Assembly (NCBI RefSeq): GCF_000787575.1
Contig: NW_012236503.1
Coordinates: 248,001-312,000, forward strand
Length of the DNA stretch: 64,000 nt
Direction of reading: 5' to 3'
From: Acytostelium subglobosum LB1
Taxonomy: Eukaryota > Evosea > Eumycetozoa > Acytosteliales > Acytosteliaceae
Under the pieces are notes generated by a model. That model saw nothing but the letters and a program-made list of their open reading frames with translations, was not told where the DNA came from and ran no database searches. This document shows positions 19,304 to 27,715 of this stretch, in pieces. Both the position numbers and the translations under genes were made by a program. Positions within the stretch are counted from its first letter, which is position 1. Each line of letters opens with the position of its first letter.

Positions 19304-22880
<3,577 letters not shown>

Positions 22881-23200: not shown

Positions 23201-24608
23201 ATGCAGGTACAAAGCTTGATGTTTGCTGTTGTCTTGGTGTTGATGTTGGCAACAACAACATTGACCAATGCATATAACTTAAATGAACACATAGAGGTGT
23301 TCTACGTTGAGGCCCCACTGATGAAGGCTCAATTTGGTAGTTTGCTTGGTAATCTCAAGGCATATCATTCTGGATTATACTTCTATGCTACGTATGTTAT
23401 ATTTGATTGATTGATCGGGTGAGCACATGACTGACCAACTCCACCCAATCACATGGAATCGTTCCACCCCACCCCACCCCACAATCACTTAATCACATCA
23501 ATCATAATAGTGAATCCAACGAGAATTATACAGCCCAATATGTGGCGTATCCTCAGATCTTGAATGCCATATTTCCAAGTGTTAATCAGACTGATGAAAC
23601 GATCAGTTGGGGTAACCTGGGCATCATCGAGTTTGATAATGAGTTCAATGGAACGTACTGGTCAACGAGTCAACAATATGTGATGTCCATCACTGGTGCT
23701 CAATTCCTTAGTTATATTTGTTGGATGGAAGGATACAATGTGACCAACTATTATTACAACCTATATGATGTTCGCGACTATAACACTGGCGAACTGTACA
23801 TGGGTAGCAGCACATGTGATGACTTTGCCTGGAACTCATTCACCGCGCTCTACAACCTTGGCGGCACATTCACCCTGGCGCCAACCTCGCCACCACCTCG
23901 CGACTTCATCACACTGCTGGTGGTGCAGCCACCCGTCATTGTCAACAACATCAACGACCCGGCCACATGGGGCCAGATCATGAACTTCTACGAGAAGATG
24001 GTGTTCATGCCCAATGAGACCGCAGTCGAGATCATCCAGAACCTGGTCAATCTATTCTCTGGCGAGTTCTACTATCATTATAACAATGATTACTACAACC
24101 TCACGCTAATCTCACAGCAGAACACCGTTCCCCTGTCCATCCTTTACAAGCCGGCGCCACTGCCATCCGGACCTCGCGACCCCAACTCCGTGCGTCTCCC
24201 CAGCAACTGTGCCACACCTTCCAGCTACAAGAAACCCGGTATTGGTGGAGGATGGATCTTCATCATAATGTAAGTTCAAGCCAAGAGTCCATGGACCCAC
24301 CCATCCTTGTCTAACATCGCTCCCATCCATCCATCCTAGTGTGTGCTCGGCTTCAGTTGTATATATTGTTGCAGGACTGATATTCAATGTCAAGCAGAGA
24401 GGCATGCCCTTGAATGCTCAGGCGATGCCCAACCACGATGGTTGGGTCGAGTTTGGAAACTTGATAAAGGTATGATTGATTGGATTGATTGATCCGATTG
24501 GATGGACATGGATTGATGACTAACATAACATTGATTCAATCAATATAGGATGGAGCATTATTCATCAAGTCCAAGGTAACTGGAACACCATCGTACTCAA
24601 GTTTGTAA
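23201..24608 (+). CDS. CLN5-like protein with transmembrane segment and M6PR-like tail
   Basis: Exons 23201-23391, 23511-24269, 24340-24469 and 24549-24608 give 379 aa. A signal peptide (about residues 1-24) is followed by a luminal domain matching CLN5: 'IEVFYVEAPL....FGSLLGNLKAYHSG' and 'STCDDFAWNSFTALYNLGG', which keep the His and Cys known to be catalytic in human CLN5 (H166, C280), an NlpC/P60-like bis(monoacylglycero)phosphate synthase/thioesterase. Several N-glycosylation sites (NYT, NGT, NVT, NET, NLT) are present. A single transmembrane segment near residues 317-340 and a tail 'NHDGWVEFGNLIKDGALFIKSK' resemble the cation-dependent mannose-6-phosphate receptor. The C-terminus is YSSL, a Yxx-hydrophobic endosomal sorting signal. 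A membrane-anchored endolysosomal enzyme is inferred. Confidence 0.82.
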
Positions 24609-24724
24609 CTTGTGGCGAGGACTACTGCTTGGACATTGGATCAATAAAGATACCCTTTGGATGGTGGTCAACTTGACGACATGTGGACCCATCCATGAAT
24701 CACCAATAACCAGATAACGTTGCG

Positions 24725-25603
24725 CTACAGGTACTCTTTAATACTGAGTGGCGAGTTGACTATTTTGACAGGTGTTCTAGACTTGGAGAAGGAGGTGTTG
24801 GATGGGTTTGGCGAGACGGGGGCGGATGTCGAGGCATACTGTCTGGGCAGTCCACCAGGACTACCAAGCAATTGACGCCACAGCTGGTCTTGTTGACTCC
24901 ACAACTCCATAAAGTTGTCGATCTTGGCTCTGTAGGCTTGGACGTTGCGCTCGTCTAACGAGCACTGTTGTTGTAACTCTTCGTTCTCGATTGTCAAACG
25001 ATTGAGTTGGTTGATCATCTCTGTTGCCAGAGTCTTGCACGTGGATATATCAGCTCTGAACTTGTCCAATTGTTGTTGTGTAATGTTGGCATCGTCCTCC
25101 AGGCTATTTCTCTCTTGTCCAAGTTCATCCAGTTGCTCTTGTAGCAATGTGATACGATCCGACTTAACTTGAAGTTGTTGTTTGAGCTCAATTGTTGATG
25201 ATTCGGATGCAGATAGTTGTTGCGCCAGAGTTCTCAATCCTTGTAACTCGTCCTCCTTTGATGCCAAACTATTCTCCAGCACCTTGATCATCTTGTCATT
25301 GTCATTCTTTGCTTCAACCTTGTCTCGCCTCAGTGCTTGGCTCTCCTCCACCTGCACTCCAATCATCTTTTCCAACTGTTCTATTCTATTCTTTAACAAT
25401 TGAACATCATCATGCTGTTCAGGATCTGTGGACTGAGTCTGTGTCTGAGGATGGACCGTGACATTGCTACTACCTCCACGTGGAGTTGACAATAGAGTGG
25501 TTACAGTAGTGCTGACATCTCCATGACCTCCACTATGATGTTGATACTTTAGTGCCTCTATCTCTTTGAAGAAACATCCAGACTTGTTGTTTGATTTATC
25601 CAT
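24725..25603 (-). CDS. Coiled-coil protein of unknown function
   Basis: A single exon of 292 aa. The ATG at 25603 is chosen; upstream codons in the same frame lie in repeat-rich spacer. Residues about 65-240 form a long heptad-patterned coiled coil (LLKNRIEQLEKMI, LKQQLQVKSDRITLLQEQLDEL, INQLNRLTIENEELQQQ). A low-complexity Ser/Pro/Thr tail follows, with STP/SRTP sites and a conserved-looking C-terminal 'VKIVNSPLSIKEYL'. No catalytic domain is visible. Coiled coils plus Ser/Pro tails are common in cytoskeletal and spindle/centrosome proteins, but no family is recognised. It converges on the CLN5-like gene with a 116-bp gap. Confidence 0.75.
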   Translation of the reverse strand: MDKSNNKSGCFFKEIEALKYQHHSGGHGDVSTTVTTLLSTPRGGSSNVTVHPQTQTQSTDPEQHDDVQLLKNRIEQLEKMIGVQVEESQALRRDKVEAKNDNDKMIKVLENSLASKEDELQGLRTLAQQLSASESSTIELKQQLQVKSDRITLLQEQLDELGQERNSLEDDANITQQQLDKFRADISTCKTLATEMINQLNRLTIENEELQQQCSLDERNVQAYRAKIDNFMELWSQQDQLWRQLLGSPGGLPRQYASTSAPVSPNPSNTSFSKSRTPVKIVNSPLSIKEYL

Positions 25604-25892
25604 GTTTACTACTTTATATTTAAGTATATGTATATATGTATAAGTATGAAATGAACATGAAGTAGTTGTCATAGACTAGATACATGGTATTGTCAAGGTA
25701 ATGGATAGCTGGCGGTGTGGTAGTACTTGTGGAGACTGTGTTGGTTGGCAGTGTGGTAACAACTTCGCGCGCCAAACACAAATGCAAAGATCGATGAAGG
25801 AAGATGGGTTGGTTGTTGTTCAAGGTCTTTGAGTGTTGAAGAAACGGTTGAACGATCAATCATTCAATCATACATTCGAGAACTCAACAACA
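25604..25892. promoter_or_regulatory. Divergent promoter region between coiled-coil gene and itfg2
   Basis: 289 bp separate two divergent start codons. There are TATATGTATA-like tracts (25625-25645) and CAATCATT repeats (25853-25870). Shared control is possible but not shown. Confidence 0.4.
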
Positions 25893-27715
25893 ATGAGACA
25901 TATATCACTTGTAGATAGAATAGTGTTCAATTGGAAAGGCAACGTGTTTAGACGTGCGATCACTCTAGCCGATGTTGACAATGATGGTGTAAGTCAAGTC
26001 TAACACGATGACTTAACAATGATCATTGATTAACTTTCAAGTACCCATGTATAATAGGATAATGAACTGATCGTTGGTAGTCTTGAAGGCAACCTCACTA
26101 TATTCAAGGGCATTGATAAGCATCCTTGGAAGGTTGCCAACAACATTGGTTCAGTATGTATGCGAGACATAAGGGTCGTTCATTCGAATGTTAACATCAT
26201 CACTCAATCATTCTAGATCACTTGTGTAGCAGTTGGTGACCTGTTAGATAGTCACAGGGTATGAATGAGCGTGCGAACGAGAGCGAGGAGGAGTGAGGGA
26301 GTGAGTGAGAGATGGAGGAAAAGGTGAAGCGAGCACAAGACCTAATCAACTCAATCAAACATATATAGAACTTGTTGGTAGTGATATCATCAGAGGGAAT
26401 ATGTAATATATATAATGTTGCTGCTAATGGAGTCGATCAAACAACAACATCCGAACACTTGGTACCAATGCTCTCACAGCGACTGCCACCAAACGCCTCG
26501 GCAATACTCATTGGCGACGTGGACAATGATGGAAAGAATGAGCTGGTCATTGGCACATACGATCACACGCTCTACTCATTCAGTCTGCAGAAGCAGTCGC
26601 AGCAGCAGCAACAACAGCAGATGATCATGGAGGACGGCAGCGGCGCTGGCGATCAGAAGGAGTGGACATTGGTTTGCAAGAACAAGTGGCAACTGCCCGG
26701 ACAGATTGGCACGCTCGTGATGGCCAAGGAGTCGGGCGGCAACGAGATATTGATCGTGGGACTGTGCGAGGGCACCAACTACATCATACTGGACAACAAG
26801 GGACAGCTGTACAAGGAGGAGCGATCATCGACCCACCCCAACATCATGTCATCGTCATACTCCCCGCCCTACATGGCTGGCTCGCACTCGTCCGCGGGTA
26901 TGGGCATGGGCATGGGCATTGGCAGCGACTTCTCCAATTCAACTGGCGGCGCGGGCGAGATCATGTCCAACAACGAGACATTCATATCGATCGACCACCT
27001 GAGGAAGCGCAAGACAGACATCATCACCAACATTAGCGCGCCGCTCAATCTGCGCGCCGGCACTTGCTTGGTCAACGAGGATGGCGTGGAGGAGCGCATC
27101 GACGATTCCGATACTGCCTCCATCATCGCGACGGCCACGTTGGACGGCGTGCTCAAGCTGAAGCGTGTCGGCAAGGGCATCGTGTGGAAGATGGAGATCG
27201 AGGAGATGGGCAGCGGCCAGCTGGTCGCACTCTATGCCGCGCCCCTGTCGCGTGACACCCACGGCAACGACTACATAGTGGCATGTGGCTGGGATGGCTT
27301 GACCGTGGTGGTGGACAGCGAGCGCAACATCGTCTCGTTCAAGTTTGGCGACCGCGTCTGCGCCTTTACCACTGGCAACTACACAATGTGTCGTGGCGCC
27401 GCCAGCACGCCCTGCTTTGTTTACGTCACGTTCTTTGGCGAGATCTACCTGTACCATAACCTAAACATCCAGCTCAAGCCGACGCACAGTCTGAAATGGA
27501 CGACCAAGCAGCAGATGGACGAACTGGTGGCGCTGGCTGCCACTGGCCTGGCGGGCGGCCAGGCCCTGGGGACTGTAGACGAGTTCTACTCAACACTCCT
27601 TTCGCCACAATTCGACAAACAGTTACTTGGACAATATTTAGATCGGCTCAAACAAGATCGTCGTCGTCGTGGTCAGTCGTCAGAAGTTGTAGACGGACAG
27701 GACAATCTGGCGTAG
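25893..27715 (+). CDS. itfg2: ITFG2 homologue, KICSTOR complex subunit (beta-propeller)
   Basis: Exons 25893-25988, 26058-26153, 26217-26258 and 26369-27715 give 526 aa. The sequence follows human ITFG2: 'LADVDNDGDNELIVGSLEG', 'ITCVAVGDL', 'NLLVVISSEGICNIYN', 'LIGDVDNDGKNELVIGTYD', 'ATLDGVLKLKRVG' and 'CFVYVTFFGEIYLYHN'. The FG-GAP-like DxDNDGxNEL units are blades of a beta-propeller. Two insertions are low complexity: a Gln run (about residue 150) and a Gly/Met/Ser loop (about 245-260). In animals ITFG2 joins KPTN, C12orf66 and SZT2 in KICSTOR, which holds GATOR1 on lysosomes and restrains TORC1 when amino acids are scarce. The function here is inferred from orthology. Confidence 0.9.

Follow-up and report, generated by a model that had tools for sequence, protein, structure and literature searches.

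The window analysed here, a 64-kb stretch of the Acytostelium subglobosum LB1 genome, carries at positions 23201-24608 of its + strand a gene in which a CLN5 domain is followed by a membrane anchor (hereafter the focal gene, and its product the focal protein). A spliced model of four exons, the last one including the stop codon, gives an uninterrupted frame of 379 amino acids, and the three introns, of 119, 70 and 79 bases, all begin with GT and end with AG. The predicted protein consists of a signal-peptide-like start, the CLN5 domain, a single transmembrane segment and a tail of 45 residues with YSSL at its end. Retention of intron 2 or intron 3 is predicted to end the protein at ...IFIIM or ...GNLIKV, respectively. 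The features are listed below with positions in the window, which corresponds to C27:248001-312000 in the genome searched (30.7 Mb, 56 contigs); paralogues are labelled by their contig (C22, C40, C54, C56a and others).

23201-23391, +: exon 1, N-terminus resembling a signal peptide, then the first part of the CLN5 domain, which includes His56 (spliced model; alignment to human residue 166)
23392-23510, +: intron 1, phase 2, codon 64, GTATGT...ATAG; identical position and phase in the C54 paralogue
23511-24269, +: exon 2, remaining CLN5 domain with Cys166, linker, and start of the membrane segment, GIGGGWIFII (PF15014, 1.5e-20; 6R99)
24270-24339, +: intron 2, phase 2, within the membrane segment; codon and phase common to six of seven ATG27/M6PR-group genes and to C56a
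24340-24469, +: exon 3, remaining membrane segment and proximal tail (...MPNHDGWVEFGNLIK) (ATG27 match at aa 302-375; hydropathy 2.8)
24470-24548, +: intron 3, phase 0; donor position the same in the C56a paralogue
24549-24608, +: exon 4, distal tail DGALFIKSKVTGTPSYSSL and stop, with C-terminal YSSL (spliced model)
24643-24648, +: AATAAA, a possible poly(A) signal 35 bases beyond the stop

Upstream lies a DEAH-box helicase gene (19516-22880, +; HA2_N, Helicase_C and OB_NTP_bind matches), presumably encoding a splicing helicase. On the other side, a convergent coiled-coil-looking open frame (24725-25675, - strand), with no Pfam match at 0.001, ends about 117 bases from the focal stop, and an Itfg2-type FG-GAP protein is encoded at 26369-27715 (+; Pfam 4.7e-51). 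The tRNA scan of the 64-kb window found none, and contig pattern searches gave 51 matches in genome contigs and 99 in viral contigs, none of which was confirmed, as expected for a eukaryotic gene.

The luminal domain

By hmmscan, residues 28-282 of the focal protein match the Pfam CLN5 family (PF15014) at 1.5e-20, with 74.4 bits, over the curated cut-off of 27. When the PDB was searched with phmmer, human CLN5 (6R99) was the single convincing relative, at 1.6e-16, the one further row being an antibody chain at 0.15. In the alignment with the human structure, His56 (in AYHSG) and Cys166 (in STCDDF) coincide with His166 and Cys280, which we take to be the catalytic residues of human CLN5. Since the pair is kept, the focal domain probably has the thioesterase/transacylase-type chemistry of CLN5. 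BMP synthase, S-depalmitoylase and glycoside hydrolase activities are ascribed to CLN5 (PMC13015511, PMC10318531, PMC9686302).

The membrane anchor and tail

A linker of about 24 residues separates the end of the CLN5 match from the anchor, where the 19-residue hydropathy reaches its peak of 2.8 (aa 313-331). The ATG27 model (PF09451) matches residues 302-375 at 2.4e-10, with 41.2 bits over a cut-off of 27 and profile positions 178-258 of 261; this is the sole stretch matched by PF09451, and the luminal part of the focal protein, which is CLN5, gives no ATG27 match. The similarity to the mannose-6-phosphate receptor (M6PR) model (Man-6-P_recep, PF02157) is weaker: at residues 308-366 (profile 163-220 of 254) it gives 6.7e-5 and 22.6 bits with the whole protein, below the cut-off of 25.4, and 25.9 bits, just over it, when the tail is scanned alone, and the M6P-binding luminal part of the model finds no match in the focal protein. 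Other Pfam rows were not significant (PRIMA1, 0.077; TMEM132_C, 0.15).

These comparisons confirm, at the level of the predicted protein, that a CLN5 domain and an ATG27/M6PR-group anchor and tail are fused on one chain. An ordinary CLN5 is a soluble mature protein without C-terminal anchor; the focal protein has the hydrophobic segment and the tail homology just described, and so differs from it in spite of its CLN5 domain. It would be a type I membrane protein, with the CLN5 domain toward the lumen of the Golgi, the endosomes and the lysosome, and YSSL on the cytosolic side.

An earlier note on this DNA had proposed a CLN5-type luminal domain with the same His and Cys, a transmembrane segment behind it and a Yxx-hydrophobic C-terminus, YSSL, all of which are borne out by the matches, the alignment and the hydropathy given above; its two introns coincide exactly with introns 2 and 3, and the first one was absent from it. 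Its claim of an M6PR-like tail stands as regards homology to the M6PR/ATG27 group, and has to be amended as regards the nearest relative, given that the tail search that it set as a check, against CD-MPR and ATG27, went over the cut-off for ATG27 and, with the tail alone, just over that of the M6PR model, and placed the tail nearer to ATG27.

The CLN5 genes of the genome

At least five CLN5 genes, a lower bound, emerged when the genome was searched with the focal protein and with the CLN5 model, and the model matched none of 14 control genomes. Three of the five have the anchor, namely the focal gene, C54 (394 aa) and C56a (401 aa), so the fusion is no isolated case; C22 (322 aa) and C40 (321 aa) are without it. 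The late hydrophobic segment reaches 2.43-2.80 in the three anchored proteins, against 0.92 and 0.73 in the two soluble ones. Manual placement was used for the first exon in C22 and in C40 and for the last one in C56a. With the tail as query, a spliced search over the 3' flanks of the two soluble genes, C22 (957 bases) and C40 (1014 bases), scored 27 in each case and found no tail; 29 other 2-kb stretches of the window, searched on both strands, gave 58 background scores with a maximum of 46 and a mean of 33, above the score of either flank.

The CLN5 His is present in all five genes and the Cys in four, the exception being C56a (L008; C56:883653-887600, with the CLN5 match at 885153-886100 on the minus strand), which keeps the His and has Ser in place of the catalytic-type Cys (SSISDDF), so that some copies may be enzymatically inactive. 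C56a is over the Pfam cut-offs for CLN5, Man-6-P_recep and ATG27, and its tail, which with the hand-placed last exon ends in DGYNPLTVPSLDEEL, matches M6PR (5.8e-7) slightly better than ATG27 (2.1e-6). C54 was missed by the genome search with the CLN5 model, and its protein lies over the CLN5 cut-off (5.7e-16); most of its CLN5 domain and the whole anchor are within one exon, and its tail matches no tail family in Pfam. Beyond a PN...W segment C56a and C54 diverge, the distal tail of C56a being unlike the others. Since ATG27 is the better model for the focal protein and M6PR for C56a, the parent of the tail is best named the ATG27/M6PR group; CD-MPR as the specific parent was rejected, as ATG27 scores higher for the focal protein.

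In a tree of the luminal domains, the three anchored proteins split from C22, C40 and human CLN5 at 100/100, in an unrooted tree of six rows with long branches, among them that of the anchored set and that of the human protein, which was flagged. The two soluble copies group at just 51/38, and in 51 of 500 label shuffles the labels clustered as well as the anchored set. On these sequences, the three anchored CLN5 proteins of the genome are one clade.

Other tail-bearing genes and a shared intron

At least seven further genes (C16a, C16b, C56b, C48, C12, C53 and C49) carry the anchor and tail as well; with the identical tail query and settings they score from 91 to 178, against the background maximum of 46, which puts the tail similarity above chance. 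The ATG27-model matches extend to the luminal part in C16a, C16b, C56b and C12, though taken alone those of C16b and C12 are weak; for C48 and C49 the luminal part was assessed just by eye. The C53 gene (C53:1658388-1659285; L036, L054) has a CIMR-type luminal match (1.3e-5), the same type of anchor, a tail under the ATG27 cut-off (20.5 bits) and a C-terminal YSSLG; from these matches, it may be an M6P-receptor-like protein of the amoeba. A weak match to the M6PR model, below its cut-off, was seen at C27:3875-4045 (18.8 bits), and a borderline CIMR match at C40:395188 (22.6 bits with its neighbours).

Intron 2 of the focal gene, at the same codon and in the same phase (2), is shared by six of these seven tail genes and has a counterpart in C56a, the exceptions being C16a among the tail genes and C54 among the fused ones; by a rough estimate, such a coincidence would have a chance of about 1 in 230 per comparison (77 codons by three phases, around 230 sites). 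Intron 3 has a counterpart only in C56a among the ten genes. C16a and C16b, two ATG27-like genes, are adjacent on one strand (C16:103731-106186; L028, L034), and it is the first of them that lacks the membrane-segment intron.

That tail genes and fused genes share this intron, down to codon and phase, points to the capture by a CLN5 copy of the 3' end of an ATG27/M6PR-group gene, phase-2 intron included. Since the conserved GIGGGWIFII precedes intron 2, the fusion junction should be further upstream, within the linker or close to it, with the intron probably carried over as part of the captured segment; this is why we rejected exon shuffling by way of intron 2. C56a and the ATG27-like C56b (C56:892288-893012; L031) have their matches 6.2 kb apart on opposite strands, which is only suggestive of a local origin of the fusion beside C56b. 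In a tree of the tails, where branches are mostly weak and one capture versus several is left undecided, the three CLN5 tails are not grouped (3 changes; set apart by a single branch in 5% of bootstrap trees), so that a single capture, in an ancestor common to the anchored paralogues, is the simplest interpretation but no established result.

Comparison with known proteins

The focal protein shares with human and D. discoideum CLN5 the PF15014 domain and the His/Cys pair, and differs from them by its anchor and tail at the C-terminus. Two reports describe the D. discoideum protein, Cln5, as secreted and as having 322 residues and a signal peptide (PMC5122030, PMC9686302), which makes C22 and C40 similar to it in length. 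The membrane status of animal CLN5 is debated, and the membrane stages of the human protein are reported to be N-terminal and not C-terminal (PMC8195759, PMC9348797). With yeast Atg27 the focal protein shares the membrane segment and the tail, including a C-terminal Yxx-hydrophobic motif like YSAV.

The literature searched contained no paper on an anchored CLN5 of this kind, nor any on CLN5 together with Atg27. Cln5-like proteins of D. discoideum have entries in sequence databases, and if these have anchors, the fusion would already be annotated there.

All ten modelled tails have a Yxx-hydrophobic motif ending nine residues or less from the C-terminus (within the last 13 residues), and in five of the ten it is the very C-terminal end. 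In yeast, vacuolar-membrane localisation of Atg27 is described as needing the C-terminal YSAV and AP-3 (PMC8008256), and a further tail sequence retrieves the protein from the vacuolar membrane to the endosome (PMC8008255). These tails and the behaviour of yeast Atg27 make a self-sorting role of the focal tail plausible by analogy; it counts against it that Yxx-hydrophobic motifs are short and common. Matches to the Sortilin-Vps10 model were also found in the genome (5.8e-50 and 4.1e-41), a model which passes the cut-off in two of 14 control prokaryotes and so is not specific; with these matches and the genome's own ATG27/M6PR-group genes, receptor-based sorting need not be absent, and the bypass of such sorting that the earlier note suggested would be a property of the focal protein only if its tail acts as proposed.

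Discussion

The interpretation of the earlier note was right in outline, and can be refined to a tail of the ATG27/M6PR group, an anchored clade of three proteins, and an intron as a record of the tail's origin. We consider it fairly probable that the focal protein is a membrane-anchored CLN5 enzyme whose ATG27/M6PR-group tail would route it to the limiting membrane of endolysosomes. The 3' end of a gene of this group, with its phase-2 intron, would have been joined to a CLN5 copy, and the C-terminal Yxx-hydrophobic motif would probably be read by an AP adaptor, AP-3, if yeast Atg27 is a guide, or else AP-1. Read in this way, the motif would let the enzyme route itself along the Golgi-endosome-lysosome route and remain on the limiting membrane. 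The fullest version of the proposal, to which we give somewhat less than an even chance, is a membrane CLN5 lineage born by 3'-end capture, that is, a self-sorting acyltransferase/thioesterase that follows the Atg27 route to the limiting membrane and ties CLN5 chemistry to autophagy membranes.

The anchor could instead be a delivery device only, with the linker being cut in the lysosome to free a soluble enzyme, as in lysosomal acid phosphatase, which is later released by cleavage. The linker of the focal protein, which sets the CLN5 domain apart from the anchor, would suit such a cut, but yeast Atg27, with a similar tail, is retrieved from the vacuolar membrane (PMC8008255), and we regard this outcome as unlikely, though with a real share of the probability. 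The parallel is one of logic, the nearest known of its kind, with no homology claimed: lysosomal acid phosphatase is a luminal lysosomal enzyme that is a transmembrane protein (PMC10996651), and the title of a work cited in PMC4584282 names an essential tyrosine in its internalization signal.

It is less likely still that the anchored CLN5 proteins are receptors or pseudo-enzymes, in which a lipid or a protein would be bound by the CLN5 domain as cargo and transported by means of the receptor tail. The origin of the tail in a receptor group that includes C53, with its CIMR-type luminal match, the loss of the Cys in C56a and the long branch of the anchored clade all speak in its favour, whereas the focal protein and C54 keep both the His and the Cys. 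Finally, as the exon joins are predicted from sequence, the anchor exons could belong to another gene or be unspliced to the CLN5 exons, a gene-model artefact that we rejected as very improbable, given that GIGGGWIFII shares exon 2 with most of the CLN5 domain, that C56a is arranged alike with introns at the same two places, and that C54 has its whole anchor and most of its CLN5 domain in a single exon.

If the fullest version of the proposal holds, the anchored enzyme would work at the limiting membrane, where a soluble CLN5 cannot be held. Thanks to the shared intron, this is a good example of an enzyme that took over a sorting tail from a family of receptors. For CLN5, a Batten-disease protein that has D. 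discoideum as a working model, the chemistry, the relation to membranes and the trafficking are all under debate. A natural tethered CLN5 beside soluble copies in one genome offers a clean test of the effect of the anchor, covering both where CLN5 must sit to work and whether it needs a sorting receptor, and if the model species has anchored paralogues too, work on its cln5 mutants must account for them.
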